Below, in pieces: positions 3,266 to 45,369 of a stretch of DNA of 45,369 nt. The stretch covers positions 1-45,369 of the IMG/VR virus record IMGVR_UViG_3300032087_001935; one strand, 5' to 3'. Source of the DNA: a virus. Each line of letters opens with the position of its first letter. Positions within the stretch are counted from its first letter, which is position 1. A program made the translations under genes and the position numbers. The notes beneath the pieces were generated by a model, which worked only from the letters and a program-made list of their open reading frames with translations, did not search any database and had not been told where the DNA came from.

Positions 3266-3276
3266 TAAGTTGTAAG

Positions 3277-24146: not shown

Positions 24147-26072
24147 ATGCCAATTGTTGTAGAACATCAACCAGCATTTGCTGCGCCGGGGATGATGGCT
24201 GCCCAGACTGGGCAGTTGGAGTACCGCAATAAACGACGACGAGAGCTTGAACAGCTTGCTATGCAGCAGGCTGAGATGGCTCAACGTCAGCGAATTTCAA
24301 ACAATAATATTGTTGCTGGTTTTCAAAAACAGCAAATAGCCCACCAGATGAATCTGCAAAATAACGCATTGCAGTGGCAGCGTGGGATGATTGATGATGA
24401 AGCTCATCACAATAGGCAAAAAGAACTTGTTGATATTAATCAGCAAAACCAGCTAAAGATTGCTCAGGCAAATGCGCAAAAGGAGGAAGAAGAACGAAAA
24501 CGCCAAGCTATACAAGATGAGGAACAAAGAAGAGCGCAAATAAAAGCAGATGCTGAAGCATCAACAATGGCTATGCTTACCCCAGCAGGCCAAGAAAATA
24601 GAAACAATATACATGCTGAATGGGCGGAAACTGAAGCGACGTTAATAGAAGAAAATGCTCCACCAGAAGCGATAGCCCAAGCAAGAGAACAATACGAACA
24701 GAGATTAAAAGATAATAGAAACAATCCTCAATACATAAAGCCTGTTGACACTCACTACCCAGCGACAACAGAACATTGGACATCTCCTAACGAACATACC
24801 ATTTACGACAACGATGGTAACGCTACTACTCAATGGGCTGGTAAAAAACGAAATCCAAAATACAACCCAGCACATCATGAAGGGACAGGAAATCTTGCTG
24901 GCCTTGCCGTTGACGAAAACGGCGAGCTTATCTTAGAGGCTGGCCCGAGGGGTCTTCCTAATCCTGTTAAATACGAGTCTGAGTTTCTTCCACAAACAAG
25001 AGAGGAGTATCTTTACGAAAAGCGTGAGTGGCGTGGCTCTGAAGAAGATGGAACTCGTTCTTACCGTGAAGGCGCTCTTGATGAACATGGCAACTATAAG
25101 CCGGGTACTAAATGGATTAATGTAGCTGAAGAAGAAGCTGAAGCTATTGAAGCCAAGATTAAACGAGACTACATGCAGACTCTTGCTGATTGGTATGCTT
25201 TACCGCCTAACCTACGAGGCGAGCAACCCAAAGACCCATTTGCAAAGGAGCCAACTGAGTGGCGTCCGTTCGGCCCCGAGGGGGGAGTTCCAGCGGACGA
25301 TGCAGTTTTTAGACATGGTGAAGATGACGCAGGTGAAAACTTCAAGCCATTAGACAATGCGTTTAATGCCTATCCTGAGTTAGCTGGTTCTATGGCAGGG
25401 AATATGGGGATGGAAGAAAGTATGCTCACTATGGGCATAACACCCCAAACAGCAGGCAACCCCGATGCTGTTCAGTTAAGCCCAGAACAGATTGAAGTCC
25501 GCGCTCAATTCGATAGGCCAGATGCTTTGCCTAGAATGGAGCCTAAAGAATGGGGTTACAACGATTTTGTTAGAAAGCTACGGGTTGATGAATACGATAC
25601 TGTAGTTAAAAGACCTGATGGAACACAGGGAGCTGTACCACTTTATGCTGTAGCACCTGAAGACAGACAAGCTGTATACGAACAAAGAAAGAACAAACCT
25701 TACGTAGTTAAATGGCCTGCAAAAGCAGAATTTAACCAGCAAAACTTAGCTAATGTAATTCTAAGTAAAGACAATCCAATTATGTTTGGTACTGTGATTG
25801 ACCTCAGTAAGATAACCTCTGAATCAGGAAAAGCGTTTGCAAAAGCGTGGGAAGAAAGAACAGGTTCTCCCAACTTTGTATTTGAACGAGAGCTTATTCT
25901 TAACATCGGCAGGAAAGCGTATCGAGGTCAGGAGTACCAAGACTTTGAAAACAAAGTTATCCAACAGGAAAAAGAACACTATGAGTTCTATGGATTCCCC
26001 GGAGACTTTCAATCTCAGAGTCAACAGGGTGGTGCTTTAGGTAGAATTTTACAAGCTGGTGGAGCTAGGTAA
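24147..26072 (+). CDS. 641-aa putative internal virion protein with N-terminal coiled coil
   Basis: Residues about 25-200 form a very long Gln/Glu/Ala-rich coiled coil (RRRELEQLAMQQAEMAQRQR; QKEEEERKRQAIQDEEQRRA). The remaining 440 residues are acidic and Pro-rich with no recognised fold. It lies between two other large proteins in the region where podoviruses encode ejected internal proteins. It starts 12 bases after the previous stop with AAGGAAAATATAA and overlaps the giant gene's start by one base. Confidence 0.75.
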   Translation: MPIVVEHQPAFAAPGMMAAQTGQLEYRNKRRRELEQLAMQQAEMAQRQRISNNNIVAGFQKQQIAHQMNLQNNALQWQRGMIDDEAHHNRQKELVDINQQNQLKIAQANAQKEEEERKRQAIQDEEQRRAQIKADAEASTMAMLTPAGQENRNNIHAEWAETEATLIEENAPPEAIAQAREQYEQRLKDNRNNPQYIKPVDTHYPATTEHWTSPNEHTIYDNDGNATTQWAGKKRNPKYNPAHHEGTGNLAGLAVDENGELILEAGPRGLPNPVKYESEFLPQTREEYLYEKREWRGSEEDGTRSYREGALDEHGNYKPGTKWINVAEEEAEAIEAKIKRDYMQTLADWYALPPNLRGEQPKDPFAKEPTEWRPFGPEGGVPADDAVFRHGEDDAGENFKPLDNAFNAYPELAGSMAGNMGMEESMLTMGITPQTAGNPDAVQLSPEQIEVRAQFDRPDALPRMEPKEWGYNDFVRKLRVDEYDTVVKRPDGTQGAVPLYAVAPEDRQAVYEQRKNKPYVVKWPAKAEFNQQNLANVILSKDNPIMFGTVIDLSKITSESGKAFAKAWEERTGSPNFVFERELILNIGRKAYRGQEYQDFENKVIQQEKEHYEFYGFPGDFQSQSQQGGALGRILQAGGAR

Positions 26073-29000: not shown

Positions 29001-32000
29001 GAACAAAACCAGACCCAACAAAAGAGCCGTCTAAACAAGGTAAGCCCACTGCTAAAGAAGACCAGTTAAAGAAAGAGGAACAAACTGAAACAGAAAAGAT
29101 TCAAAGCAAAATAGATAAAGCGAAGCAAAAATATAGCAAAATTGAAAACCCAACCAAAGGACAGACTAACTACCACCGAAGAAAGATAAACAAACTCATT
29201 GAGCAACAAGCAAACCTCGAACGGGAATACGAAGTAGCACAAGATGAAGTTGCTAAAGAAAAAGAAACCGAAGTTAAAGAAGAAACCAAAGCTCAAGAAG
29301 AAGGCAATGCTGTTGATAAAATGCTGGCGCTACAAAATGAAGAGCGCGAGCTTGAACTTAAACCTAAGACTCCCGAAATTCGCGCAAGGCTTACACAGAT
29401 AAAAGCAGAAAGAAAGAAGCTGCTTCCACAGTATCAAAAGGAATTAAAGGCGCAGTCACAAAAGACTCAAGAAGCTAAGCCCAAGGTTGAGCCTGAGGCT
29501 ACACCTGAAGTCAAACCACCGCCTTTGCCTACAGCAAAAGAGACTGAATCTTTAGTACCAAAAGATGCAGTTATATATGAAGTTATAACTACATCAACCG
29601 ACAAGTATCGTGACGTATTAGAAAGAGGGCCAGTTCCTTCTGAGGCTAATCGTCGCTGGATTAGACAAGGGGTTTCAGGTCATTCAAACGAACTTGAAGA
29701 TACTGGTGGTAAAAATCATGCTTTTACGATAAATCCATCTAGAAGAGCAGGTCAAAGGAATCAAGGTGCTTTAACCCAAGTTGGTTTTCCGGGACGTGAC
29801 AAAACAGGTAGAAGCAACTTCATGGCTCATAGTTTTGTTATTAATACCAAGGAAGACCTTGATATTAGCCCAGCAAAAATCATAAAGCAGATTGAGTTTG
29901 AAAATGACTGGAAAAAATATTCGGATGTTCAAGACCACGTTAAAGAGCAAACCAAAAAACCAACCATTGATAACATTGTAAATATTGAAACCCCAAGCGT
30001 TATTTCTAATGAGTTAGCACAAGAGATTGCAGATGCGATACTCGATAGAAAAACAGTCCAAGTTCAAATAGTATATGACTCAAAAAATCTTCCAAGTAAC
30101 TTGGATGTGATGATTCAGGTTTCAGAATTGCTGCCCAATAAAGAGCAATGGGAGACCACGTTCAGCACACAACACAAAGAAGGGAGTAAAAAAGATAATT
30201 CAATTAGAGTTCAATTCTTACATGCTGAGGATGCTAGCTCCCCTTCTAGTCGGGTAAAAGTTTTTAACATTACCAACGAGGTTAAAAGCAAACCGGAACC
30301 CAAGCCAGAGACTAAGGTAGAACCTAAGGTAGAGCCTAAGGTAGAGGCTCCAGAACCCCACACTAAAAGAACAGACGAATTTGACGACTTTATCGCAATT
30401 ACGAGAGAGGGAGAAATCAAAGATAACAGCGGTATTAGTTGGGATTGGCAGGTAAAAAGCGGAGATTATGGGGATGTAGTGGCAGGTGTCTCACTTAAAG
30501 CGGAATTTGACGGTTTTGGTTATGTAAGCGAACTATGGTACGGCGACGAAAGTTTACAAAGCGAAATTAAAAAGAGCGAATTATACAATCGAATCCGTAC
30601 GGCAATTCAAGATAACCAAGTAGCGGCTTTGGACGAATCGAACCAAATACGGGAAGAGACTAAGGTAGAACCTGAACCACCCAAGAAGACTCCGGCCCAA
30701 AAGAAGAAAGCAGAAGAGGCAGGCAAGGCTAAGTATTCTAGGACTCAACTTAACAAAGATATAAAAGAATTCTTAGGCCCCGGAATATCTTTGCAGGCAA
30801 ACAAAGAAGGTGGCAAAGACAGCTTCATTATTGAGACTACTCGCAATGCTCAAATGAAGCTCAAGCCAGACGCTTCACTTATTATTAACGAACCTCTTAT
30901 TAAAGAGGGTGAATCTGTTGAAGACGCTCAAGACAGATGGTTTGGCGCAGGAGAAATGGGTGGTATTCTTGATTCTTTTTTAATATCAAAAGATGAAAAA
31001 CTAGAAGAACTGAAGGGAAAGATAAAAGAAGCTAAAGACGATTCTTGGGATAAAGACCTCAAGGAAAGAATGCAAGAAAATGAAAAAGAGGCGTTTAAGT
31101 TAATAGCTCAAGGAGCGAAGCAAGAGGCAGCTAGAAAAAAAGGTACACCCACAAAAAAAATAAAGATAGTTAGTGGCAAGCTAGAAGAGTGGACAGAACA
31201 AGCGTTGGCTGCTGAGGAATGGGCGCGTAATGAATTAAATCAAAGTGTCCCTGAACAAAGTGATAAGGCTACGTTGCAGGTTCCTCGTGATTTTGAAGAA
31301 GCGTATCACGATAGAAAAACGCTGGATGATTTTAGAAAGTATCGCTTTGATAAACGGAATGTTGATGCTGCTCGCAAAGGTAAGGCAGAAGACATATCTG
31401 ACAATAGCGATTTGGTTTTTGAAGCCTTGTTAGACCATCGTTTGATTCATAGCCGTTTGCATAAAAACAACTACGGCATAATGCCAGATGCGACTAAGTT
31501 AATTGAAAAGCGTTTAACTAAAGACTTAAAGGCTTTAGGTAAAACGATAGACAACTTAACTCAGGCAGAGTTAGATGTCCTTCGTAGAAACATAGGGGCA
31601 GAGCTAATCAGAAGGTCAGAACCTTCACGTAGATATGACCACATGTTCTTTGACCCTAAAGGCAAGAGATTGATTTCTAAAGATGGTTCTTTCACATTGC
31701 AATGGGAGTACGACCCTAACAGTGTAGTGGGTCGAGTTGTAGAAGGTGGCCCGGCTATTGGGCAGAAAACTAGCACGCCAATTCCATTCAACATGGGAAT
31801 GGTAATTAGGATAACTCCTGAAGAATTTGCCGCAACAAACTGGAGCGACATTCCACCCTTCGTAAAGAACTTATTTGGAACCCCATGGTCTAAGCTGGAT
31901 GCCAAAGCACAAAAGAAGTTTAAGAACGAAGCCGACTACCAAGCGTCTATGTTCAGAAACATGCACGAGGCTTTAATTAAATCGCTTGTGCCTAAAGAAA

Positions 32001-35000
32001 CTGAACTAAAAAAACAGCTAGAGCAATTGAGAGAAGGTGAGTCTATAAGGCTGGATGCTGAAAAGAAGGCCAAGGCTTACCGAAGACAAATACCTTACAA
32101 GGTAATGAAGTCTTACCCTGACATGTTTAAGCAGGAGCTTAAAGAGCTTACGCAAAGACGGGAAGAAAAGCTGGGTGAGAACGCATCTATGGAGCCGTCA
32201 CCTAACCTGACTCTTGAACATAATGAATATTTGTTTTCTCCGTTAGACGTTAAGCCTATGAGAGATGTCCCTGCTAACTTGCAGGTAACTGAACAAGCTG
32301 TTCGTTCGTTTGCTGGCGGTGTAACAATAGGAAAAACAAGAGCAGGATATGTTGTTAAAACTCCTAATGGTGAATTTCATGTAGTTCACGTAAATGACAT
32401 TCGCCATTTAAATGAAATGGAATTAAAGCGTTATGAAGGGCAGTATACGAAAAAGCAATTAGAGGCAGCAGCTAAACATCAGCCGATGGGTGTTTATGTA
32501 AGAGGTAAAGGCAAAAGGAAGTATGGCATTACCGACTTAGGAGTAATCTATCTTAATGGTCACCCTGACAGCATGGCTGACATGGGAACACTTACTGAAG
32601 AACTGTTCCATCTCGCTGACGTAATGGGGTTCATTAACTCTGCTGACAGAAGGAAGCTAGTTAAAAAGTATAGCTCTTTAGATAAAGACTTTATTACCCA
32701 ATCCGAAGAGATAGCTCACGCCTTAAAAAGAATGGAGCGTAAAGACAGGACTTTTATTCTGGGTGGTTTGCGGAAGTTTCTCCGCAAGTTAATGAAGCTC
32801 TTCAACATTGATGACAGTGTTGGGAGAGTAATGCTTGACGCAATGAAGGCGGGAACTATTTGGGAAACAAGAGATGATGTTAGAGCTGCTCACATCAACT
32901 CAATGCTGGACGCTAAAGACTTATTCTTTTCTCCCACTTCAAATAAAGTAAAAGGTAAAACGCAAACAGCTCCCGAAGCCGACTACAAAGACTGGCAAGC
33001 TCGTACAGAACAGGGTCGTATTGATTACGAAAACAGACGCATACCTGAGAATGACAAGTTAAATAGACAGGCTGCTGCTGACCAGATAAGAGGCAGGGAA
33101 GTTGATGCTCTTGGTGAAGTGATTGATAAGATGAGAGACATGGAGCAGGCTGGATTTAGTGCAGTTGATATGCACAAAGCCAAGATGCTTCACGATGTTA
33201 TATGTCAGTGGGAAGATACAGGACAACACGATGGCAATGTTGACTTTATCATGTTGGTTGCGAAATATCGTGAGGCTTACAGAAGGTTAGGTACAGCTAT
33301 TGCTCGCGCTCTTAACGCAAGACGTTCTCCATATAGCACTGAGACAGAAGCAATACATGCAACCTTACGTGAAGCAGTGTTTATGCCAAACTCACAGAAG
33401 GTAAGGGAGTTACAGAAGTTACTCGGAGTAAAGAGCGAAGAACTAATTTCAGAGTCTGCTGTTGAAGGCGACTTAATGCTTAATCCAGACGGTGGTATTG
33501 AAGGCACAGGTACTGGATTGGCAGGTGGAAACGGAGTTCCTAGTGGCGCACCGGGAACTGGAGTTGGAACCGGAACAGGAACCGGAACAGGGACAGGGAC
33601 AGGGACTGGATTGGGTACTGGTGCAGCAGGCACAATGCTTGGAACTAATTACAAACTTGCTATTAAGAAGCTGCCTAGGTCTAAACAGCAGCAAGCGTCA
33701 CAATTGCTTGCCGATATAGTTAAAGAACGTAAAGACATGAAAGACTTCTTGCGAAATCAAGGCTTCGATGTAAGTGTCAAAGGTCTCCAAGCTATAGCTA
33801 AGAACCCTATTCGTGCCAGACAGTTTATGGACAATGTGTCTTGGAAGAAGATGCACCAAGTAGACAAAGCATTCGCTTGGTTAAAACATATCTTCTACAA
33901 CAATATTCTTTCAGGTATACGGACTCACATTACTAATGTTACAAACAATATGTTGTATCGTAAGTACCGTGACTTTGAGCGTGGCATGGGGAGGAGCTTG
34001 TTCTTTTCTATGTCTGACCCCGCTGCTATTAGAGAGAGCTTAACCGGAGAAGACTACAAAGACTGGAAAAGAATGGAGCGTAAGTTACTTCGTTCTAGAA
34101 AGAATGAAGTAGGTAAGGGTGTTCTTAAAGAAGAGTGGGCTGAAGCTATTAACCTTGTGAACAGCGGATACGCAGCAGCATGGGCAAACACATGTACTAC
34201 ATTCAACACTAACTACAGTGCAGTAGATTCAAAGCGACTAACTAAAGATGAGTTAGATTTTTATCGTCGTGAAGGTATTACTCAACCAATAGCCACTGGC
34301 CCTATTAGTAAAGCATTAGTTGGAGCTTATGGCGTACCAACAAAAGCATTGCGTGCAGGTGACGAGTTTTTCAGGAGTCTTGCCCTTAACAGTTTAGTTG
34401 GCGTAGCGGCAGCGGCAGAAGCTCGGCTGGCTGTAGCTGATGGAAAGATTGGTAGCGATGAGATAGATGGGTATATCGTAAAACAAATAAGTAATCCAAA
34501 TTCATTAGCTTGGGACAAGGCTCATCGACTTGCTTCTGAATTTGTTCATCAAGAAACAGACGGTGCGCTAAGAACCTCAGTTATTCGTCTAATTGAACGT
34601 GGGGGAAAAGGGGTTGAAAACATTGTTTCAAATTGGGTAGGTGACGGTTATGCGGGTCGAATAATATATAACACTTTAGACCTTGGTCTTCGAGTTTTTG
34701 CTTTGCCCTTTAGAAGAACCCCTATCAACTTAATAGGTAAGGGTTTTGCGAGAAGTCCTTTCTTAGGTCTTTTGCTAAATGGAATGCACGGTATAGGCAC
34801 CAAAAATAAAGCACGTAGAGAAGGCACAAACGTAGCTTTCTTTGATGGAATAGAGGGTGAGTCATTTGCTTCTATGATAAGCACGATAATGATGCTTGCA
34901 ATGATTGGTGCTGGAGATGATGAAGGCGACGACAGCATAGGCTGGAAAAATTTTGGGTGGACAGGTTCAAAGCCGGGGCGAGACAAAGAAGAAGAGATTC

Positions 35001-36055
35001 ATGGATTCAGAGAGGGCGTTCGTGGTGCAAACACCATCTGGATTTTCGGTCACCAGTTTAATTACTCTAACGTAGAACCATTCGCAACAATGATGTCAAT
35101 GGCAGCAGACATAGGCAGCGAATTAAAGAAAGGTAATTATGATGGGGCAGCGGCTGAAATGTTAATCGCTTCTCCAGCGCATCAAGCACAAGATAGAAGT
35201 TTCTTTAAGGGGGTAGACGAGTTTAGGAAAGTTGTCAGAGCAGCGGGTGATGAAGATGACTCGGCTGGCGCACAACTTAACTCATTGTTTGCTGATGCAA
35301 TTGCCTCATTCGCTGTGCCTAATATAGTCAGGCAAACAGTCAGAGAAAACAAAAACTATGTAGTTACGAAGGTGTCTGATAGCTTTACTCAAAGACTTGT
35401 AAAGTCTATGGAGTTACCAGACACAGTAGTCAGAATGTTTGGTGGCGAAGCCATCCCCCCTGTTGTAGATGCTTGGGGTGGCGTGGCAAGGAATGAATTC
35501 AGAAAGCCTTTCGATGATAGCGAGATGAGTCAGTGGTCTAGGTTTATTGGCAACATGACAATGCCAATGCTTAAATACTCAGGTAGTGACGAGGTGTTTA
35601 TTGGTGATGAAATCTATGTCAACTACAACAAGGGTAAAGCTGGCAAGGAAGAAAAGTTCCCCAGAAGTTTTTGCGGTAGACCTTGGGAGAGGACGTTCCA
35701 GCATGAAGGGAATGAAATCAAATTGAGTGAGACTGACTACGCTCATTTCCAGTATTACGCTGGCGGGATAGCTGCTCGATTGTGTCATAAGTATTTACCT
35801 AGGAAGAGGGTAGATAACCCAAGTGACTTTGACATCCATATGGTTACCACACTTAGAAACAAAGCTCGTGATTACGTAAAATCTAAATACCTTCAGGGTA
35901 AAATGTATGAGATAGGCATTGAGTCTGGTGCTGCTCAAACCGACAGGGATTTTATGAAATATATTCATGAAAGAGCTAATGTAAAAGTTAAGGATAAAGA
36001 TGCTTACGAACGTAGAGAAGAATTTAGAGCATACTATAAAGATGTAGGTAATTAA
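26072..36055 (+). CDS. giant 3327-aa polyvalent internal virion protein
   Basis: Fills 22% of the genome. Segments: 1-480 helical virion-type region; 480-640 Pro/acidic linker with four EAPPVI-x-D repeats (593-630); 640-1160 charged coiled coils; about 1165-1410 a region resembling GAP1-N domains (DKTGRSNFMAHSFVIN, 1243-1258); a KVEPKVEPKVE linker; 1550-2100 helical; about 2115-2245 a metallopeptidase-PolyVal-like domain in which EELFH (2176-2180) replaces HExxH and TQSEEIAHAL would supply the third ligand; a Gly-Thr hinge (2499-2512); then 2525-3327 resembling the C-terminal part of large podovirus internal proteins (NNILSGIRTHITNVTNN). Probably ejected into the host. Domain names are judged by eye. 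Confidence 0.8.
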   Translation: MATGFQTPEFSLEQRRRDLDPAYDAQQRAEEAKKKADEQVQDLLAMGAGYGNNTHSNLAPEGIAEDPLTPDERRDANNRYDKQNRGRLNVPTESPLFSLDLGKAKELAQQQRDIEIVPRFGKWEDMSPAERGEEAYRQVEKEMQENPQARAGVEGTAIVGKDNIPILGSFLSAADASALQVTAQRIVDDKAEPADYILFAKAMHQANHDAQKGLLEQTGEAIADVGTLMVDYWLSGGVLSKGGLGNATEAQIAGKEFAEKAAKKEIFDKALEKIGGGWFKQGAAKVGRHVSDVAIKAGKKGIMYAPRAAETIAGRGSIDDFIIDEKGNYQFKEEEDSAGRDLFEAVATAYAEIVIEEIIPDGVLAGLAKGSKNKAIKKLGEFMTKAGETKVGKAASVGGFGGMLGEIGEERLTELANYVITNEVDQLGTSKALWDAVASGDPEKINEAWEMGAPELGAIGAIGAVKGATSFVGKRNPTKQGNRQNIPASPDAIPGAAGVDDIQDIQVEPGQRQEIVQEEIPDVQVEPTDVTQRAERPQEVEEDAAPPVPRSEVLPEGHPALGDVDTRAEPPEVKIPDLKPDDIQYDPKPKAPDVEAPPVIEDVEAPPVIEDVEAPPVIKDEVEAPPVIQDKTDVPVAKRVTREPQTEQMDTSGDINNPIERLDMKDESAYREDIESLIKKSKKAGGKVSRNDIKSIGYLDGTLYDNKKYDFSKSTERRRFVREAEQRLKQGRQQTQKAQEQQRQPVVKVVPEPTKTEPLKLKDALKNVQEQERYKEAGEIKGSRQAASRYDIDYGEQRKQERRDAATREINKVLMKDIPAKSDNEQENNERSQLIHERLNTLAGNMGVEVDANMSIKEKKDVILDKHEESEQEGFKETVKEGMERDKRTSPWLDIEASWESEAKPDKKVPLPPGYRYSKDGAIVKPGESLKQINAINNEIANLRTKPQNADTRAKIESLQQEREDIVNAHNARVIKRTKPDPTKEPSKQGKPTAKEDQLKKEEQTETEKIQSKIDKAKQKYSKIENPTKGQTNYHRRKINKLIEQQANLEREYEVAQDEVAKEKETEVKEETKAQEEGNAVDKMLALQNEERELELKPKTPEIRARLTQIKAERKKLLPQYQKELKAQSQKTQEAKPKVEPEATPEVKPPPLPTAKETESLVPKDAVIYEVITTSTDKYRDVLERGPVPSEANRRWIRQGVSGHSNELEDTGGKNHAFTINPSRRAGQRNQGALTQVGFPGRDKTGRSNFMAHSFVINTKEDLDISPAKIIKQIEFENDWKKYSDVQDHVKEQTKKPTIDNIVNIETPSVISNELAQEIADAILDRKTVQVQIVYDSKNLPSNLDVMIQVSELLPNKEQWETTFSTQHKEGSKKDNSIRVQFLHAEDASSPSSRVKVFNITNEVKSKPEPKPETKVEPKVEPKVEAPEPHTKRTDEFDDFIAITREGEIKDNSGISWDWQVKSGDYGDVVAGVSLKAEFDGFGYVSELWYGDESLQSEIKKSELYNRIRTAIQDNQVAALDESNQIREETKVEPEPPKKTPAQKKKAEEAGKAKYSRTQLNKDIKEFLGPGISLQANKEGGKDSFIIETTRNAQMKLKPDASLIINEPLIKEGESVEDAQDRWFGAGEMGGILDSFLISKDEKLEELKGKIKEAKDDSWDKDLKERMQENEKEAFKLIAQGAKQEAARKKGTPTKKIKIVSGKLEEWTEQALAAEEWARNELNQSVPEQSDKATLQVPRDFEEAYHDRKTLDDFRKYRFDKRNVDAARKGKAEDISDNSDLVFEALLDHRLIHSRLHKNNYGIMPDATKLIEKRLTKDLKALGKTIDNLTQAELDVLRRNIGAELIRRSEPSRRYDHMFFDPKGKRLISKDGSFTLQWEYDPNSVVGRVVEGGPAIGQKTSTPIPFNMGMVIRITPEEFAATNWSDIPPFVKNLFGTPWSKLDAKAQKKFKNEADYQASMFRNMHEALIKSLVPKETELKKQLEQLREGESIRLDAEKKAKAYRRQIPYKVMKSYPDMFKQELKELTQRREEKLGENASMEPSPNLTLEHNEYLFSPLDVKPMRDVPANLQVTEQAVRSFAGGVTIGKTRAGYVVKTPNGEFHVVHVNDIRHLNEMELKRYEGQYTKKQLEAAAKHQPMGVYVRGKGKRKYGITDLGVIYLNGHPDSMADMGTLTEELFHLADVMGFINSADRRKLVKKYSSLDKDFITQSEEIAHALKRMERKDRTFILGGLRKFLRKLMKLFNIDDSVGRVMLDAMKAGTIWETRDDVRAAHINSMLDAKDLFFSPTSNKVKGKTQTAPEADYKDWQARTEQGRIDYENRRIPENDKLNRQAAADQIRGREVDALGEVIDKMRDMEQAGFSAVDMHKAKMLHDVICQWEDTGQHDGNVDFIMLVAKYREAYRRLGTAIARALNARRSPYSTETEAIHATLREAVFMPNSQKVRELQKLLGVKSEELISESAVEGDLMLNPDGGIEGTGTGLAGGNGVPSGAPGTGVGTGTGTGTGTGTGTGLGTGAAGTMLGTNYKLAIKKLPRSKQQQASQLLADIVKERKDMKDFLRNQGFDVSVKGLQAIAKNPIRARQFMDNVSWKKMHQVDKAFAWLKHIFYNNILSGIRTHITNVTNNMLYRKYRDFERGMGRSLFFSMSDPAAIRESLTGEDYKDWKRMERKLLRSRKNEVGKGVLKEEWAEAINLVNSGYAAAWANTCTTFNTNYSAVDSKRLTKDELDFYRREGITQPIATGPISKALVGAYGVPTKALRAGDEFFRSLALNSLVGVAAAAEARLAVADGKIGSDEIDGYIVKQISNPNSLAWDKAHRLASEFVHQETDGALRTSVIRLIERGGKGVENIVSNWVGDGYAGRIIYNTLDLGLRVFALPFRRTPINLIGKGFARSPFLGLLLNGMHGIGTKNKARREGTNVAFFDGIEGESFASMISTIMMLAMIGAGDDEGDDSIGWKNFGWTGSKPGRDKEEEIHGFREGVRGANTIWIFGHQFNYSNVEPFATMMSMAADIGSELKKGNYDGAAAEMLIASPAHQAQDRSFFKGVDEFRKVVRAAGDEDDSAGAQLNSLFADAIASFAVPNIVRQTVRENKNYVVTKVSDSFTQRLVKSMELPDTVVRMFGGEAIPPVVDAWGGVARNEFRKPFDDSEMSQWSRFIGNMTMPMLKYSGSDEVFIGDEIYVNYNKGKAGKEEKFPRSFCGRPWERTFQHEGNEIKLSETDYAHFQYYAGGIAARLCHKYLPRKRVDNPSDFDIHMVTTLRNKARDYVKSKYLQGKMYEIGIESGAAQTDRDFMKYIHERANVKVKDKDAYERREEFRAYYKDVGN
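27848..27961 (+). repeat. four tandem DVEAPPVIxD-coding repeats
   Basis: Four units of about 10-11 codons encode EAPPVIED, EAPPVIED, EAPPVIKD and EAPPVIQD within the giant gene. Codons differ between units (for example CCACCA, CCGCCA, CCGCCG). It is likely a flexible, extended spacer. Confidence 0.85.
33566..33607 (+). repeat. hexanucleotide GGNACN repeat (Gly-Thr hinge)
   Basis: Seven tandem 6-base units (GGAACC/GGAACA/GGGACA/GGGACT) encode (GT)7, inside a longer Gly/Thr-rich linker that separates the zincin-like half of the giant protein from its C-terminal 800 residues. A replication-slippage hotspot and probable flexible hinge. Confidence 0.9.
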
Positions 36056-38988: not shown

Positions 38989-40731
38989 CTACCAGCGGAA
39001 TTGCTGGCGTGGTGCATCAAAAGATAGCTCTACCTTAGCAGTCCTGATAGGGCCGTTGCGTCTCTTGGCTATATGCAGGTCATACTTCTTAGGGTCTCTG
39101 TTGTAGGCTCCTCTTGCATGCCACCAGCCAAACATAATAAGGTCAGCGTCTTGCTCAAGTTGACCGGACTCACGTAAATCCGATGCGTTAAAGTGTACAT
39201 TATCCCTACGCTCAACGTCACGAGAAACTTGGCAAAGTGCTAGCACTCCGACATTGTGTTCTCTCGCTGAGGTCTTGATGCGTTGTGAGATTTCAGTAAC
39301 AGCTTCGTAGCGTCCTTGCTTCTTGCCTGCTCTAAGTAGTTGTAGATAGTCTACTGCTATTAACTGCACACCCTTCTTGGCGTAGTGTGCCATGTACTTC
39401 TCTACATGCTCAAGTGTTGAGACATTGTGGAAGTAGAAGGGTAGTTTCTCTATTAGTTCAGTCGCCTTGTATTCAATTTCCTTCTGGCGATTCTGCCATT
39501 CACTCTCATCTCCCCCGATGAGTGTCTGAATAGCCCTCCTGCCTATCTCTATCCGGCCCATCTCGGCATTGAGCATTAGTACCGGAGTACCATTGCGCGC
39601 TGCGTGCATAAGCCACTGTAGTGCTATGGCCGACTTACCATGACCGGGCCGTGCCGCTATGATTGCCATCTCACCCGGCCCTACCCCGTCGATACTATCG
39701 TCCAGTGGTTTTATTCCACTGGCAAAGTAGTTGTCGTAGCCTATCCTGTTTACAAACTTGTTGATACAGGAGAAAAGGGTATTGCCCTCTGGGTCTTCCT
39801 CGATAGCTAACTTCTTAGCCACATTATCACTGACACCTTTGTAGGCATTAGCCACGGTAGTCTTAATCCAAGTGTCGGGCTTGTCGTAACTGTTCAGGTT
39901 ACACCATACACGTAGTGACTGCTCTATCTCATCGGTAGGTATTCGCTCATACACTAAGTCTCTAGCAAGGGCATATGCTTTACTGGAGTTAGTGGTGTCG
40001 TTGAATCCCTCGGGGAGTATTCCATTCCATCTCTGGGCAACACTGGAGTTAGTAGTGGCCACAAGTTCGGCTACTCTTTCGGGCAATTCATCACTGCCCT
40101 CGAACACCGGCACCTCTTTCTCTTTGTATCCGTAGGCTTGGATGTACTCTTCTAGTTCAACAGGTGTGATAGTATCCACCTCATCGAAGCCTATGTCATC
40201 AGGGCCTGCGTTAGGGTCTATAATCTTAGACTTATTCCAATAGGGTAGGCGTACCTGATTGCCTAGTCCTCCCTCACGTAGCTTTGCCTGACGAGGATAG
40301 ATTTCCTTGTATCCGATGTTGAGTTTGCTATCGACGGACTTCCAAAAGAAGATTGCCTTCCCAGCGTCGATTGGCTCTGAAAAGAACAGCCACACATGGG
40401 CGCCACTACCACTGCTACTAATTTCAAACACAGGGTCAAGGCCCATCTTCTTGAGATGGTTGTACGTTTCATATGCTTGTTCCTTCCACTTAGGGTTAGG
40501 GTCATTGTCGTGATTGTCGAAGTCTACGCAGGTGCATTTAACCTGATTGTTTTCATCGACTAGATAGATACCGTAGCATTCCTTTTGTTCCTTAACGTGA
40601 TTGCTAAGGTAGGTATCTACTTCTAATTCTAATTCTCTAGGTGCTGGTGATTTTCCTAGCGGCTGTACTGCGAGTACGCCCATCCTGCCTGAGAAGTGTT
40701 TCAATATCTGTTCAGCTTGTATTGTTTCCAT
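38989..40731 (-). CDS. primase-helicase fusion (AEP primase + DnaB helicase), 580 aa
   Basis: Residues 1-200 look like an archaeo-eukaryotic-type primase: D70/D72 in CTCVDFD, the SGSGAHVWLFF motif with H112, and NQVRLPYW at 158-165 supply the expected DxD, sxH and basic motifs. Residues 335-580 are a DnaB/RecA-fold helicase: Walker A ARPGHGKSA (K366), DYLQLL, LRESGQLEQDADLIM and the RRNGP finger. The protein would unwind and prime at the fork. No polymerase gene accompanies it. The strong ribosome site CGGAGGAAACG follows an intrinsic terminator that could limit its expression. Confidence 0.9.
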   Translation of the reverse strand: METIQAEQILKHFSGRMGVLAVQPLGKSPAPRELELEVDTYLSNHVKEQKECYGIYLVDENNQVKCTCVDFDNHDNDPNPKWKEQAYETYNHLKKMGLDPVFEISSSGSGAHVWLFFSEPIDAGKAIFFWKSVDSKLNIGYKEIYPRQAKLREGGLGNQVRLPYWNKSKIIDPNAGPDDIGFDEVDTITPVELEEYIQAYGYKEKEVPVFEGSDELPERVAELVATTNSSVAQRWNGILPEGFNDTTNSSKAYALARDLVYERIPTDEIEQSLRVWCNLNSYDKPDTWIKTTVANAYKGVSDNVAKKLAIEEDPEGNTLFSCINKFVNRIGYDNYFASGIKPLDDSIDGVGPGEMAIIAARPGHGKSAIALQWLMHAARNGTPVLMLNAEMGRIEIGRRAIQTLIGGDESEWQNRQKEIEYKATELIEKLPFYFHNVSTLEHVEKYMAHYAKKGVQLIAVDYLQLLRAGKKQGRYEAVTEISQRIKTSAREHNVGVLALCQVSRDVERRDNVHFNASDLRESGQLEQDADLIMFGWWHARGAYNRDPKKYDLHIAKRRNGPIRTAKVELSFDAPRQQFRW

Positions 40732-40745
40732 CGTTTCCTCCGATT

Positions 40746-40782
40746 GAAAAAGTGGGGTGGCAGGTAGCTAGCCTACCACCCC
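40746..40782 (-). terminator. intrinsic terminator/attenuator between ssb and primase-helicase
   Basis: On the minus strand GGGGUGGUAGG pairs with CCUGCCACCCC over 11 bp around a CUAGCUA loop and is followed by ACUUUUUC. One pair is U-G on the minus strand but would be C-A on the plus strand, so the structure is intact only in the leftward transcript. It lies between SSB and the primase-helicase and would lower readthrough into the latter. Confidence 0.75.
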
Positions 40783-40805
40783 TCGTCTGCACTAAACTCG
40801 ACCGA

Positions 40806-41309
40806 CTAGAATGGTAACCCATCGTCACCATCGCTATCGGAGGAAGCTGCGGGAGCAGCACTGTCAGCCGGAGCTGATGCAGCCGATTGCTCGAACAGAT
40901 GACCAAACTTGGCATCCAAGTCTAGCAAGGCGTTACTGTCCAAAGCGGGTCTCTCTGGTGCGCCTGAGCGTGGGCGGCTTACTCGCCAGTTCTCATAATC
41001 ATTTTTGATTTTGTTGTAGAACTCGGCTCGTTTCCCAACCAGTGCAGTACCCTTAGCGAACTCGCTAATGCTTCCAGCAAAACCTAAGACCTGAAGGTCT
41101 TGCATGGTGTAGGGTGCTGCGTCTTGGCTGAGTAGCATGCTCATAGTGCGCGTCTGAGGTTCAGGGAAGTCATACTCAACACCATCGGATTGAACTCCCT
41201 TGTCAACCTTGATGGTTATGTAGGCACAGGGAATCCCTGCCTTAGGGGTTTGGCTTACTGTATGACCAGTGATTTCGCCTCTGTAGGTTCCTGTTTGTAA
41301 TTGCGGCAT
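40806..41309 (-). CDS. ssb: single-stranded DNA-binding protein, 167 aa
   Basis: A beta-rich N-terminal two-thirds (TYRGEITGHTVSQ; YITIKVDKG) is followed by an Ala/Ser/Asp-rich disordered linker and an acidic tip ending DGDDGLPF, which mimics the DDxxPF tail by which bacterial SSBs recruit partners. Gene order next to Sak4 and the helicase supports an SSB role. The OB-fold is not obvious by eye, so it belongs to a diverged phage SSB group. Start follows AGAAGGAAATAAATA and overlaps the Sak4 stop. Confidence 0.75.
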   Translation of the reverse strand: MPQLQTGTYRGEITGHTVSQTPKAGIPCAYITIKVDKGVQSDGVEYDFPEPQTRTMSMLLSQDAAPYTMQDLQVLGFAGSISEFAKGTALVGKRAEFYNKIKNDYENWRVSRPRSGAPERPALDSNALLDLDAKFGHLFEQSAASAPADSAAPAASSDSDGDDGLPF

Positions 41310-42124
41310 TATTTATTTCCTTCTTTTGATAATGCGTTTCTAAAATTAGTCCATGCCTCTGTAGCACTATTACCTAATTGGAATGTAGGTGGCATACCAT
41401 GGCGGTTCTTAGCATCCCATGCTGCTGTACGCTGAGTATGTGCGACACGTATGTTACCGCCTTTGGCCTTACCCTTAAACCCATCCTTTTCTACGACAGT
41501 GTGGTAGTTAAGGAAGAGTATGATGTCGGCCCACTTAGCTGTAAGTCCCCATTGGTTCTTGTGCATATCAGGTTGGTACCTGTCATAGTCTTCGCCTTCG
41601 GGGTTGTTATAAAGCGTGGTTTTTGAGTGAGCAAGTCCTATTATACCCACCTTCTTGTCACGTATTAAGTCTAGTTTGTAGAGCATCTTGCTCCACTCCT
41701 GACTAGCTGATGCGTAACCTTTACCGAAGCTGGCAAAGCCCTTTGGCCCCCAGTCCCCGGAGTACATGGTGTCACATACATGCTGATTACACATGGCTTC
41801 AAATCCATTGACACAATCAAGCACGATAGTCTTGAAGTTCAAGTCACCCATCTCTGCCAGTGCGTCCAAGTAGGACAGGAAGGTAGGCCAGTCATCCACC
41901 TCATCTAAGTGGCTTGTCTCGGGCAACTGCCCTGACTGTATAAGGGTTTCTAATCCTGTCTCACCCTTACTCATTAGGAATAGGGGTTCTTTCGCTTGCG
42001 CTGCGAAGGAAGTTTTACCGATACCCTCTACGCCATAGACAATCATGGCTGGTGGTCGGTCACCTCCCTTCGTTTTGACCTTAGCTAGCAGGTCAACCGG
42101 CGACTTCGTTGTTGGAACGGTCAT
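41309..42124 (-). CDS. Sak4-like RecA-fold ATPase (recombinase), 271 aa
   Basis: Walker A GVEGIGKTS (residues 31-39, K37) and a Walker B-type TIVLDCVNG near residues 98-107 define a RecA-like ATPase. The GLAHSKTTLYNNPEG and WADIILFL segments match the AAA_24/Sak4 phage family, single-strand annealing and strand-exchange helpers often encoded beside an SSB, as here. Start overlaps the nuclease gene by 32 bases and follows GATAGGAGAGAACG. Confidence 0.85.
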   Translation of the reverse strand: MTVPTTKSPVDLLAKVKTKGGDRPPAMIVYGVEGIGKTSFAAQAKEPLFLMSKGETGLETLIQSGQLPETSHLDEVDDWPTFLSYLDALAEMGDLNFKTIVLDCVNGFEAMCNQHVCDTMYSGDWGPKGFASFGKGYASASQEWSKMLYKLDLIRDKKVGIIGLAHSKTTLYNNPEGEDYDRYQPDMHKNQWGLTAKWADIILFLNYHTVVEKDGFKGKAKGGNIRVAHTQRTAAWDAKNRHGMPPTFQLGNSATEAWTNFRNALSKEGNK

Positions 42125-43124
42125 CGTTCTCTCCTATCTTTCTTGCTTTCCAGTATTCTTCTAATGCTTCATGAAAAGCCGAACCAAAAACTAATGCGTC
42201 AGACTTCTCCTTATTGGGTTCAATCTGTTGCACGTACCTGTAGTAATACTTTCTACGACAGGTCATAAAACATCCAGCCTTGCTATGCGATAGCGTAAAC
42301 TGGCCTGATGTATCTCCACCCTTGCGGTGTCTCCAGCGGTCATCTTCTTCGCTACTGGTACCCCTGCACAAGGATATGTACTCACATGGACTGTTGTATG
42401 AGTTGCACATGTTGGTGTTCTGGTACCACCTCTCATTTGCAGTAGCCTCATCAATGTCCTTTACTATGTCTTCAAGCTCATCGTAAGTCTCAAGTAACTG
42501 TGTACCTGTACGGTAGATGTTGCCTACCCGACAGTAATACTTATCGCTCTGCGTAAGCACTGTGTGCAGGCACCTAAGGTAGTACAGTCTTAGGCATTCG
42601 CTTGTTGGCGGACTCTCGCAGTTTACCGATTCACCTACGTCTAATCCGTAGTAGGTTCCGTACTGGCTAATCTCTCTCTGTGTGCCTTCAGGCTTGCGTT
42701 CGCTCCCCTTAGGTATGGACTTAGGTTTAATACTTAGCTTGCGTATGATGTCGTATATGGACTGCGTAAGTGGTCGCTGATTCACATACATAGCTAAGTG
42801 GTATCTGCTTAGTTGTTGCTCGAAGGATAGGCGTAGGAAATATGGGTTAGTCTGGTCTGATAGGTCTATGGTGGTAGTCTTATGCTCTACCATAACTCTC
42901 TCTTGGTTGTACCCTGTAACGAGAGTGTCTATCTTCCCAGCGTATTGCCAGTCTGTCCCTTCGATAGGGAAGCTGACTGATTCTTCCACGCTAAGTGCCT
43001 GCCACTCTAAGTCACCCCACTTCTCGTGGTATCCGACCATGAGCGCCTTAGCCTTAGCTAGCTCTATACCATCTAACTCCGATATACCCAGTCTATCTAG
43101 GCTTCTTTCTAGTGGTGTCATCAT
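42093..43124 (-). CDS. RecB/Cas4-like PD-(D/E)XK exonuclease, apparently circularly permuted, 343 aa
   Basis: Core motifs D66 (AGKID), E80/K82 (VEHKTT) and Q104 (QQLSRYHLAMYV) occur in the N-terminal third, followed by a cysteine cluster C240-x6-C247-x5-C253. The segment that normally begins this family (SHSKAGCFMTCRRKYYYRYV, then ALVFGSAFHEALEEYW with C289 and H318) lies at the C-terminus instead. The pieces join naturally if residue 330 is connected to residue 1, so this looks like a circular permutation. The enzyme probably makes recombinogenic ends for Sak4/SSB. Ribosome site GGAGGACA. Confidence 0.8.
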   Translation of the reverse strand: MMTPLERSLDRLGISELDGIELAKAKALMVGYHEKWGDLEWQALSVEESVSFPIEGTDWQYAGKIDTLVTGYNQERVMVEHKTTTIDLSDQTNPYFLRLSFEQQLSRYHLAMYVNQRPLTQSIYDIIRKLSIKPKSIPKGSERKPEGTQREISQYGTYYGLDVGESVNCESPPTSECLRLYYLRCLHTVLTQSDKYYCRVGNIYRTGTQLLETYDELEDIVKDIDEATANERWYQNTNMCNSYNSPCEYISLCRGTSSEEDDRWRHRKGGDTSGQFTLSHSKAGCFMTCRRKYYYRYVQQIEPNKEKSDALVFGSAFHEALEEYWKARKIGENDDRSNNEVAG

Positions 43125-43290
43125 TGTCCTCCTGACTATCTAACAACAGTTCCCGTAGGCTTTCTCTAGCCTGTTCAGCAGTGTCAAACCTCCGATAGGT
43201 AACACCGATGGGGGCAACCAAACGGTAGTGGAAGTCGTCCTCTTCCCACTCTATGTGCCAGCCCTGATAGTCGTCGTCTTGTTTAGTCAC
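43093..43290 (-). CDS. hypothetical early protein, 65 aa
   Basis: Unrecognised acidic protein with an aromatic beta start (DYQGWHIEWEEDDFHYRLV) and a helix (DTAEQARESLRELLLD). GTG at 43290 is preferred, with AAGGAGACTAAAC in front, over an upstream ATG that lies across the promoter at 43305-43332. It overlaps the nuclease gene by 32 bases. Confidence 0.65.
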   Translation of the reverse strand: MTKQDDDYQGWHIEWEEDDFHYRLVAPIGVTYRRFDTAEQARESLRELLLDSQEDNDDTTRKKPR

Positions 43291-43304
43291 GTTTAGTCTC
43301 CTTA

Positions 43305-43332
43305 AAGATAATGAAATTTCTGCTCTTGTCAA
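43305..43332 (-). promoter_or_regulatory. second leftward sigma70-like promoter
   Basis: Minus-strand TTGACA (43327-43332) and TATCTT (43305-43310, 4 of 6) are separated by 16 bases. It faces the recombination/replication genes. The predicted start is only about 8 bases before the GTG at 43290, so that gene would be nearly leaderless from this promoter, while the downstream genes would be expressed normally. Confidence 0.5.
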
Positions 43333-43395
43333 GCACCCTTCCATCAATTAAGTTGTGATTATAATGGAAGTATAGCCAGCCTGACTATTAAGTAT

Positions 43396-43411
43396 TGCGG
43401 CGTCAGCCGCA
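43396..43411. promoter_or_regulatory. perfect palindrome TGCGGC-GTCA-GCCGCA
   Basis: Six-bp perfect inverted repeat with a 4-base spacer in the 241-base gap between the genes ending at 43532 and starting at 43290. It may be a small hairpin or an operator site for a dimeric repressor; no T-run follows on either strand. Confidence 0.45.
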
Positions 43412-43457
43412 TGGCAAGTATTCAATCAGTTAGTGGGCTAGCCTGCTAGCGCACAGA

Positions 43458-43466
43458 TGATATAAT
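43458..43466 (+). promoter_or_regulatory. extended -10 promoter for a plus-strand small RNA
   Basis: TGaTATAAT is a perfect extended -10 element on the plus strand, inside a region where all genes are on the minus strand. No good -35 is present, which extended -10 promoters tolerate. Expected start near 43473. Confidence 0.5.
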
Positions 43467-43472
43467 GTGGAT

Positions 43473-43534
43473 AGTTTAGTCCTCAGCCGGTGAGTGTCAG
43501 GTCTTAGTCTCCCTCCTCACCGGCTTTCTTTTTA
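43473..43534 (+). ncRNA. candidate antisense small RNA (about 60 nt)
   Basis: Bounded by the TGaTATAAT promoter and an intrinsic terminator. The 5' single-stranded tail contains UUUAGUCCUCA (43475-43485), and the 21-base terminator loop contains GUCUUAGUCUCC (43501-43512). These are complementary to the two ribosome-leader classes of the early genes, GAGGACUAA and GGAGACUAA. It could repress early translation in trans. Prediction only. Confidence 0.45.
43485..43534 (+). terminator. plus-strand intrinsic terminator in the minus-strand block
   Basis: AGCCGGTGAG (43485-43494) pairs perfectly with CTCACCGGCT (43516-43525), ten GC-rich bp, followed by TTCTTTTTA. The U-run exists only in the plus orientation, so it ends a rightward transcript although no rightward gene lies nearby. 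It may end the small RNA, or stop late readthrough. Confidence 0.75.
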
Positions 43535-44083
43535 TCCCACGCCATTCTCACCATATCTATCTACGATAGTCTGTATGGTATTAGCCTTCTCTCTCTTAAT
43601 CCTTTCTTCAAGCTCTGCCTTGTACTCATCTATGTACTGTAGTGCTAGCTCCTCGTAGTAACCCCCGGCTATCTGGTTTGTTTTGAGGTGTGTGTATAGA
43701 GAGTGTATGCCTGCTCCAGTAAACTTCTTCCTTTTCCTGTTGCGCTTACCGTAGTAGTTCAGGTGTTCGGCAATACGTGAGTAGCTATACCCAACATCTC
43801 GGCAGTACATGATGATATGTAGGTTCTTCTGTTCTGTAGGGTGTTCAATCAGTTCAGTGTCACCGACATGCCTTAGCTTCCATCCGTAGGGGATAACTCC
43901 GGCGCGCTTCCTCTCGCGCCGGAGTTTCTCATAGGTATAAGCACTGTCACTCTCCACCTTCTTGATAGTCTCTTGGATTAACTCGCATAGCTCTCTCGCT
44001 ATGCTTAGATACTCTATGCTATTCTCATCAGAGTAATCTTTGAGTCTATCGTAGATGGTATCTACTAGCTTCTTATACCTCAT
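43532..44083 (-). CDS. serine-recombinase C-terminal-domain-like DNA-binding protein, 183 aa
   Basis: Residues about 57-115 (RKRAGVIPYGWKL; EHPTEQKNLHIIM; VGYSYSRIAEHLNYYG) follow the pattern of the 'recombinase' domain found after the catalytic domain of serine recombinases (G-x-x-P-Y-G-Y, E-x-x-I-V, G-x-S-x-x-x-I-A-x-x-L-N). The catalytic resolvase domain is absent; the N-terminus is a plain helical region. It is therefore probably a DNA-binding or regulatory protein. The frame contains an 11-bp GC-rich inverted repeat. Ribosome site GAGGAGGAAGTGG lies within the upstream gene. Confidence 0.6.
   Translation of the reverse strand: MRYKKLVDTIYDRLKDYSDENSIEYLSIARELCELIQETIKKVESDSAYTYEKLRRERKRAGVIPYGWKLRHVGDTELIEHPTEQKNLHIIMYCRDVGYSYSRIAEHLNYYGKRNRKRKKFTGAGIHSLYTHLKTNQIAGGYYEELALQYIDEYKAELEERIKREKANTIQTIVDRYGENGVG
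43896..43925. repeat. 11-bp GC-rich inverted repeat inside the recombinase-like gene
   Basis: ACTCCGGCGCG (43896-43906) is perfectly repeated as CGCGCCGGAGT (43915-43925) with an 8-base spacer. In the coding strand it spells K-L-R-R-E-R-K-R-A-G-V. The stem is far more GC-rich than its surroundings and would form a stable RNA hairpin on either strand, with only a weak TTTCT tail on the plus strand. Confidence 0.8.
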
Positions 44084-44285
44084 CCACTTCCTCCTCTGCC
44101 CCTAGCTTGAGATGCGGGAAAGCCCTCTGCATCATCTTCATAGTCCTAGCTGACATAAGTCTTTGCTCATTAATCTCCGCAGCAACAGTAGCTGTTGGAT
44201 AGTCAGATGTTATAGCAGCGTAAGCCTGTAGGTCATAGAACGCATTGGCTATAGCTGTTACTTCTTTGGTTGATAGTTTAGGCAT
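44073..44285 (-). CDS. hypothetical early protein, 70 aa
   Basis: Unrecognised helical protein (KEVTAIANAFYDLQAYAAIT; EINEQRLMSARTMKMMQRAF) with an acidic tail. The ATG follows CAGGAGGACTACA. It overlaps both neighbours, by 8 and 11 bases, consistent with coupled translation in the early operon. Confidence 0.7.
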   Translation of the reverse strand: MPKLSTKEVTAIANAFYDLQAYAAITSDYPTATVAAEINEQRLMSARTMKMMQRAFPHLKLGAEEEVDEV

Positions 44286-44628
44286 TGTAGTCCTCCTGTG
44301 CAGGTAGGTTAAGGGCTTCTAGTATAGAGTCGTAACAGTGCGCCTTGTGGCTCCAGCTTTCTAGTACACCTATGGTTTCTTCCTTACTGAATGGAATCTC
44401 TCTGTCATAGGCATCCTCTCCATGTATCTCCTCATAGATAGCACGCAAGTGACACATGGTACTGCTGACTAGCTTCTGGGACTCCTTGATTGTAGCTACA
44501 ACCATATCCCACCTATCCTCTTCGTCGATAGTATCTCCTAGACTATCTCTGTTGTGTATGTCCTTGATGGCTCTATCCAGCATGTAAAGGGAAGCCTCAA
44601 GGGGGTTTAGTTTCTTAGTCTCACTCAT
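44278..44628 (-). CDS. hypothetical early protein, 116 aa
   Basis: Unrecognised all-helical acidic protein (NPLEASLYMLDRAIKDI; WDMVVATIKESQKLVSSTM; KEETIGVLESWSHKAHCYD). Ribosome site TAAGGAGTAAATACG lies inside the tiny membrane-protein gene upstream, whose stop overlaps this start (ATGAGTGA). Confidence 0.72.
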   Translation of the reverse strand: MSETKKLNPLEASLYMLDRAIKDIHNRDSLGDTIDEEDRWDMVVATIKESQKLVSSTMCHLRAIYEEIHGEDAYDREIPFSKEETIGVLESWSHKAHCYDSILEALNLPAQEDYNA

Positions 44629-44722
44629 CGTATTTACTCCTTACGACTAGCTTGTGTGTTATCCATCCCACTGGTATTAGCAGAATGGGTATTAGTATGA
44701 ACTGTATGAACTCTTCACTCAT
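44621..44722 (-). CDS. 33-aa single-TM membrane protein
   Basis: ATG at 44720-44722 follows GGAGGCTAGAGA and the frame ends TGA at 44621-44623. The product is MSEEFIQFILIPILLIPVGW followed by ITHKLVVRSKYDE, one membrane helix with a basic cytoplasmic tail. Both ends overlap neighbouring genes by ATGAGTGA-type junctions, arguing for a real coupled gene despite its size. Function unknown; tiny early membrane proteins often target host functions or superinfection. Confidence 0.6.
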   Translation of the reverse strand: MSEEFIQFILIPILLIPVGWITHKLVVRSKYDE

Positions 44723-44927
44723 TCTCTAGCCTCCATCGGTAGCCCTGTATTAGTGAAGCCATCCTGTCCAGTTTTTCTATGATTGTCTTTAGCTCACTGT
44801 AGGTGTAGGTATTATCGAATGAGCTAGATATTTGTATCTCGGCAGTAGTGTCTACCATGTATACGTATAGCTGAATATCAATGTCATCAGATATTTTGTC
44901 AGCATATAGTTTCTTAAGTTCACTCAT
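44715..44927 (-). CDS. hypothetical early protein, 70 aa
   Basis: Unrecognised. Beta-rich middle (DIDIQLYVYMVDTTAEIQIS) and helical C-terminus (YSELKTIIEKLDRMASLIQG). Ribosome site AAAGGACTGACA. Its stop overlaps the start of the 33-aa membrane protein gene. Confidence 0.7.
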   Translation of the reverse strand: MSELKKLYADKISDDIDIQLYVYMVDTTAEIQISSSFDNTYTYSELKTIIEKLDRMASLIQGYRWRLENE

Positions 44928-44929
44928 TG

Positions 44930-45136
44930 TCAGTCCTTTCCTTCGTAGACATCTATCTCTTTGCTAACACAGTCCCGTATCGAATCTATGTTGTACTTTT
45001 TGCTGTCAACATAGATGTAGGTCGCCTGTAAGTTATCGCAATCAATGGCTACCGTAGCTAAAGCCCTGATTATTCTTAGTTGGGATTCATAAGGAACCTC
45101 CGACCATAAGTGGTATTCAGTTGTTGCTCTAATCAT
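44930..45136 (-). CDS. hypothetical early protein, 68 aa
   Basis: Unrecognised. ATG at 45136 (MIRATTEYHLWSEVPYESQL) preferred because GCGAGGTTAAGA precedes it and it overlaps the upstream stop (ATGATTAG); a longer frame to 45169 lies inside the upstream gene. Alternating helix and strand pattern, slightly acidic, soluble. Confidence 0.68.
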   Translation of the reverse strand: MIRATTEYHLWSEVPYESQLRIIRALATVAIDCDNLQATYIYVDSKKYNIDSIRDCVSKEIDVYEGKD

Positions 45137-45272
45137 TCTTAACCTCGCTCTCTGCCCAGCTATTGCCATTGGCTATTGAGGGTGTGTCCTTACCTCCAAT
45201 GAGGCGGTACTGCTTACCCTGTTCAGGCTTATCCTGTTCAGAATTGTTAGGGGTATCTTTTTCTTGTGGCAT
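45129..45272 (-). CDS. hypothetical early protein, 47 aa
   Basis: Unrecognised, strongly hydrophilic and probably disordered (MPQEKDTPNNSEQDKPEQGK). ATG at 45272 follows a perfect AAGGAGGACTAAATAC leader, the best match to the operon's ribosome-leader consensus. The leader overlaps the end of the junction-spanning membrane-protein gene. Confidence 0.6.
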   Translation of the reverse strand: MPQEKDTPNNSEQDKPEQGKQYRLIGGKDTPSIANGNSWAESEVKND

Positions 45273-45276
45273 GTAT

Positions 45277-45369
45277 TTAGTCCTCCTTAGGATGCTGGTG
45301 TGTTCTCCCAGTCCACACATCATGAACTGCGAGTAACACATACACTGAAGTAAATAAGTAAACGTATAT
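45277..45369 (-). CDS. 3' part of the junction-spanning 36-aa membrane protein gene
   Basis: Same gene as at 1-109, seen here without its start: the TAA stop is 45277-45279, and the coding part continues to the window end and across into positions 92-109 of the circle. Confidence 0.55.
   Translation of the reverse strand: MYVYLFTSVYVLLAVHDVWTGRTHQHPKED
45279..45369. repeat. terminal direct repeat, right copy
   Basis: Exact copy of positions 1-91; see the left copy. It closes the circle. Confidence 0.9.

Follow-up and report, generated by a model that had tools for sequence, protein, structure and literature searches.

A predicted small RNA complementary to the shared early-gene leaders of a circular phage

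Results

A predicted plus-strand promoter and terminator within a minus-strand gene block

The DNA analyzed here (the window) is the whole 45,369-nucleotide record IMGVR_UViG_3300032087_001935, a circular phage whose ends overlap by 91 bases. Its late genes point rightward and occupy about 4.4 to 37.6 kb; the early and replication genes point leftward, from about 4.0 kb across the junction to 37.6 kb. The replication genes that we identified encode a primase-helicase, a Sak4-like ATPase and a PD-(D/E)XK exonuclease. A single plus-strand ORF of 3327 codons (26072–36055) takes up more than one-fifth of the genome. Named phages gave no DNA match to its early end (40001–45369), and only distant protein matches; no host or prophage relatives were found in the genome contigs collection. 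Two other features lie between early genes on the minus strand: a Type II hammerhead ribozyme at 2551–2617 (Rfam score 54.1 bits, cutoff 37), which was not found in the phages L007, L011 or L046 described below, and a tRNA-like stretch at 3270–3341 with a T-arm-like GGTTCGAATCCTAC, where ARAGORN called no tRNA.

The locus of interest lies directly downstream of a block of small early genes and directly before the exonuclease operon. Every gene in the surrounding block is on the minus strand, and an earlier reading of the letters (the sequence-only reading) had singled out a plus-strand unit here, with a perfect extended -10 and a 10-bp terminator followed by a U-run. Both elements are indeed present at 43458–43535 on the plus strand, as are the parts of the predicted RNA described next. 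The extended -10, TGaTATAAT (43458–43466; TG at 43458–43459, TATAAT at 43461–43466), was the sole TGNTATAAT in the genome when both strands were scanned; no -35 consensus was seen at this promoter. The predicted RNA of about 61 nt (43473–43533) would start 7 nt past the -10 and end in the U tract, and consists in order of AGUUUAGUCCUCA, a 10-bp hairpin with a 21-nt loop, and UUUCUUUUUAU. Its 5′ seed, UUUAGUCCUCA (43475–43485), is unpaired in the predicted fold except for the last A. The terminator hairpin (43485–43525) pairs 43485–43494 with 43516–43525 and carries a second seed, UUAGUCUCC, in its loop (43504–43512). The U tract, TTTCTTTTTAT (43525–43535), overlaps the stop codon of the minus-strand gene at 43532–44083.

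The predicted fold had an energy of -19.5 kcal/mol (z = -3.9 against shuffles), with the 5′ tail left unpaired. An extended -10 and a terminator at this spacing occurred once in the window and in none of 300 random genomes generated by a first-order Markov process with the composition of the window genome. Searches against Rfam 15 returned no family above the gathering threshold at the small RNA in the window, in its relatives or at the G017-type loci described below, and membership of a known RNA family was therefore dropped.

The exonuclease operon has a promoter-like TTGACA-16-TATCTT (43305–43332, minus strand), which lies outside the small RNA and whose TTGACAAGAG is retained in L007 and L011. 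The gap at 43291–43440 also contains a small hairpin whose stem varies by lineage (GCGGC-GTCA-GCCGC, ACGGGC-GTCA-GCCCGT and ATCGGC-GACA-GCCGAT), and the further conserved blocks CTCTTGTCAA and TATAATGG, possibly an operator or an origin.

This setting bears on one rival explanation, in which the locus acts in cis, either as an antisense RNA or by transcriptional interference in the manner of lambda OOP, or acts at the DNA level in the control of replication or of a promoter. An RNA of this kind would pair only with mRNA reading through from the recombinase-like gene into the exonuclease operon. The position opposite an operon and beside the replication genes, the possession of a promoter and a terminator, the overlap with the upstream gene's stop codon and the other conserved blocks in the same gap all fit such an element. 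The small RNA overlaps only that stop codon and the intercistronic gap, and any read-through mRNA would pair with it fully. However, GC skew tracked gene strand and gave no origin signal at the gap, and a cis element leaves unexplained the matches between seeds and leaders across the genome and their joint shifts between lineages. We consider this explanation unlikely.

The tail and loop match the leaders of most early genes

The reading that we prefer, an RNA acting in trans, draws on the complementarity between its two seeds and the minus-strand leaders of early genes. The sequence-only reading had claimed 9–10 nt of complementarity between the tail and four leaders, and these matches proved exact. 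The leader GAGGACTAA precedes the genes starting at 45272 (45277–45285; 10-nt run, -16.8 kcal/mol), 748 (750–758; 10-nt run, -15.3 kcal/mol) and 3230 (3236–3244; 10-nt run, -14.8 kcal/mol), and GAGGACTAC precedes the gene starting at 2032, which encodes a DUF932 protein (2036–2044; 9-nt run, -13.7 kcal/mol). The proposed match of the terminator loop to a second leader class likewise held: GAGACTAA, found before the gene starting at 43290 (43293–43300) and a small ORF starting at 109 (111–118), forms a 9-nt run with the loop at each site. The tail showed further contiguous 8-nt complementarity to the leaders of 3700, 44285 and 43290, and the loop UUAGUCUCC matched the leader GGAGACTAA.

We then compared sets of leaders, which we chose and compiled ourselves from ORFs, with no curated annotation. 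The target motif, GGAC(T/A) or GAGACTAA, was present in 12 of 17 early leaders, none of 4 replication leaders and 1 of 24 late leaders (Fisher p = 2e-6), so that only 1 of the 28 other leaders in the window carried it. The motif marks the block of small early genes and the first two genes past the RNA (43290 and 43124); the genes farther on (Sak4-like 42124, the next at 41309 and the helicase at 40731) lack it. Mean predicted duplex energy with the 13-nt tail was -12.2 kcal/mol for early leaders versus -6.3 kcal/mol for the others (p = 2e-7). Among 34,226 filtered genomic 13-mers, the early leaders themselves excluded, the tail ranked first for matching early leaders. None of 1000 mononucleotide shuffles of the tail scored as well; 23 of 1000 dinucleotide shuffles did, a weak control given that a 13-mer has few distinct shuffles of this kind.

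Pairing with 16S rRNA was rejected as the cause of the motif, since the 16S tail failed to separate early from other leaders (p = 0.08), in contrast to the small RNA tail. This agrees with the sequence-only reading, which had held that the ACTAA following GAGG is unexplained by 16S pairing.

The unit is conserved in three lineages

We searched for relatives with the helicase, the recombinase-like protein and the exonuclease, and two further lineages, L007/L008 and L011, were found to span the gap. Their helicases are 66–69% identical to that of the window, and their proteins adjoining the small RNA are 31–32% identical. In L007 and L011, the gap contains TGRTATAAT, 7 nt (9 in the window), TTAGTCCTYA, an 11-bp hairpin AGGCTAGCGGG...CCCGCTAGCCT and a U-rich tract (TTTCTTATTAG / TTTCTCATTAG). 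The 5′ tail (G)UUAGUCCUYA thus persists in L007/L008 and L011, and TTAGTCCT of the 5′ seed is invariant across the three lineages. Counted by hand, compensatory double changes put other Watson-Crick pairs in place of 6 of the window's 10 stem pairs in L007 and L011. Identity between L007 and L011 rises to 96% over the hairpin (50-nt windows), the most conserved stretch compared between them; most of the recombinase-like gene is 40–70% identical. Between the window and its close relative L003, there were zero differences in 43291–43531, and both flanks differ.

A covariance model built from L007 and L011 only recovered the window site blind (43458–43535, E = 4.5e-4). In the 487 kb searched with this model, L003 (E = 8e-5) and the window were the top two hits, and the next had an E value of 0.09. 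A tail-pattern scan of the viral collection returned 26 stretches, with the hairpin only in the three known lineages, and the number of independent lineages with the window-type RNA is therefore three only. All three have GGACTAA leaders and keep the whole unit of promoter, 5′ seed, covarying hairpin and U tract; the sequence-only reading had named as its undoing relatives that kept the leaders and lost the promoter and terminator. Records without the window-type RNA have other leader motifs where the early region is readable, and the window-type tail was found in none of 29 terminase-related records, many of them fragments.

The locus thus has three features by which a trans-acting small RNA can be recognized: its own intergenic promoter, read from sequence evidence alone as TGRTATAAT in three lineages; a 3′ intrinsic terminator, with a hairpin, a U tract, a z of -3.9 and a covarying stem; and an unpaired, conserved seed complementary to the translation initiation regions of several genes.

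The conserved unit also bears on the alternative raised in the sequence-only reading, that the minus strand simply keeps two orphan leaders of lost genes, with automatic complementarity and coincidental plus-strand signals. As an account of origin this is probably right, because the gene-sense strand of the loop, GGAGACTAAGACC, is identical to an early leader of G009, a distant relative. The alternative is also favored by the start codon and the ORF of 6 or 10 codons that come after the gene-sense motif in L007 and L011. As an account of retention it fares poorly. The motifs are held in register with the covarying hairpin, TGRTATAAT and the U tract in three lineages, and the hairpin is better conserved than anything else compared between L007 and L011. 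The mini-ORF is missing from the window, and a conserved minus-strand mini-ORF was rejected for that reason. Orphan leaders alone are an improbable explanation of the locus.

Leaders and RNA change together

The leaders of the relatives were examined in the same way. The target motif was present in 9 of 17 early versus 0 of 3 other leaders in L007, and in 10 of 14 versus 0 of 3 in L011. Duplex energies favored early leaders in both (p = 6e-6 and 1e-5, respectively, against each phage's own replication leaders pooled with the window late leaders). L007 leaders read (A/G)AGGACTAAC and AAAGGACAA(G/A), and those of L011 are mostly AAGGACTAA, AAGGACTGAC or AAGGACTAGC.

The RNAs differ accordingly in the letters that face these leaders. 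L011 leaders are chiefly AAGGACTRA, and the tail there has CUUA in place of CUCA, a match to AAGG rather than GAGG. The L007 and L011 tails start with GUUAGU, a match to ACTAAC, and L007 leaders are mostly ACTAAC. The L007 loop CUUGUCCUUUG matches that phage's own CAAAGGACAA leaders, and the loop portion CUUGUCCUUU matches the leader AAAGGACAAG. When tails were exchanged between lineages, each bound the leaders of its own lineage best, with small margins; the corresponding exchange of loops, in a simple energy test, was not diagonal. L046, whose terminase is 80% identical to that of the window, may be of the same phage type as L011, with which it shares a metagenome; its leaders include AAAGGACTAACA, which pairs with the L011 tail at -15.5 kcal/mol.

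These joint changes weigh on a further explanation, in which a translational repressor protein resembling RegA binds the leader motif and the locus is a gene-sense RNA decoy or an autoregulatory operator. In favor of this, the gene-sense hairpin presents GGGAGACUAAG in its loop, with a second motif after it. However, one would expect a protein-binding site to remain unchanged, whereas the RNA tracks the change of motif between lineages, and the conserved U tract and extended -10 are on the opposite strand. We regard a repressor-protein site as very unlikely.

A second RNA type occupies the same gap in other phages

A terminase search gave 39 records. In three of these phages, G017, G024 and G018, the gap that separates the recombinase gene from the exonuclease contains an RNA of another kind, which lies on the gene strand. 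This RNA consists of a hairpin with the loop UCCUCCAU (8–10 nt), a linker GGUCUAGGGUU (in G018, GGUCAAGGGUU) and a terminator hairpin followed by a U tract. The first early gene and the exonuclease of G017 and G024 have the leader CCCUAGACC..GGAGGA or GAGGAGA, which is complementary to the linker and loop. Predicted duplexes between these RNAs and their own leaders range from -23.5 to -32.4 kcal/mol. By inspection, the terminator loop also matches leaders (UUGGUCU with AGACCA in G024, UUGGCCA with UGGCCA in G018), and a promoter-like pair TTGATW-17-TAGANT precedes the RNA in G017 and G024. We regard the G017-type RNA as an arrangement analogous to that of the window rather than a demonstrated homologue. 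Its place on the gene strand also argues against automatic complementarity from orphan leaders.

Several other observations concern these phages. One covers window 43532–44083 (minus strand), L099 9321–10184 and L101 8531–9307: the protein adjoining the RNA resembles the C-terminal part of a serine recombinase, and the relatives G017 and G024 have the full resolvase domain. A palindrome AATCAAGCACCC/GGGTGCTTGATT adjoins the RNA in G017 and G024, and the window seems to retain one half, CAAGCACCC, near 43330. Repeated early leaders are also present in G009 (L097; GGAGACTAAGACCG) and G020 (L102; AACCCCAACACGGAGA), yet no convincing anti-leader RNA was found in either.

Discussion

We think it probable that the locus encodes a trans-acting, base-pairing RNA that occludes ribosome-binding sites in the early operon and lowers early translation. 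A host-type extended -10 promoter would give rise to an RNA of about 61 nt ending at its own terminator. The free 5′ tail would pair over 6–11 bases with the shared Shine-Dalgarno leader (GAGGACUAA / GGAGACUAA), and the hairpin loop may serve as a secondary pairing site for early leaders. The leaders so paired, on the opposite strand, would belong to most early genes, and the small RNA, in competition with the 30S subunit, would reduce translation of the whole early set. Downstream replication genes and late genes would be spared because they lack the target motif. The computed evidence extends to the promoter and terminator signals, the complementarity and its specificity for early genes, conservation, stem covariation and the joint shifts of RNA and leaders; from it we infer transcription, repression as the direction of the effect, its timing and any need for a chaperone such as Hfq.

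A broader proposal is more tentative, and we hold it somewhat short of even. Each lineage may carry its own early-leader 'barcode' together with a matching anti-leader RNA at a fixed site before the exonuclease, ending early translation as a block. The early genes of co-infecting relatives might also be hit, since the window loop matches 13 nt of a G009 leader.

The shut-off of early genes on passage to middle expression in phages is usually credited to transcription factors or to proteins such as RegA of T4. RegA represses about 30 phage mRNAs at their initiation regions in competition with the ribosome (PMC3014915). The likeness to the window is that a single phage-made factor would oppose the ribosome at many initiation regions. 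RegA, however, is a protein with A+U-rich sites at the AUG, whereas the window factor would be an RNA and would pair with the Shine-Dalgarno leader. The small RNA is best read as a putative functional analogue of RegA, one made of RNA.

The OOP RNA of lambda lies beside the replication genes, with its transcription opposed to the early operon. Like the predicted RNA, OOP is a short phage RNA with its own promoter; it is antisense to cII (PMC12197685) and has one neighboring target, whereas the window RNA is complementary to many separate leaders and has hardly any overlap with a gene. The sar RNA of P22 is also a phage antisense RNA acting at translation initiation of a phage mRNA, but ant is its single target, within a lysogeny circuit (PMC12197685). 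DicF, VpdS and PreS, encoded by phages or prophages, also pair with mRNAs in trans; the mRNAs on which DicF and PreS act belong to the host, VpdS influences those of both phage and host, and none of the three is described in that source as matching the shared leader of its own early operon (PMC12197685). Small intergenic RNAs are also found in the virulent phage PAK_P3, whose sRNA1 and sRNA2 are about 100 nt long, late, of unknown function and with one proposed phage target each (PMC4933390), in contrast to the shorter window RNA with its many leaders. We found no description of a phage RNA aimed at a shared early leader in the open-licence literature.

If the proposed mechanism is correct, an RNA of about 61 nt that reaches most early mRNAs by way of one shared leader would make a very cheap switch for early-to-middle shut-off. 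It would also account for the likeness of early leaders beyond the Shine-Dalgarno core, and it predicts that repeated early leaders in other phages can serve as a guide to a matching RNA.
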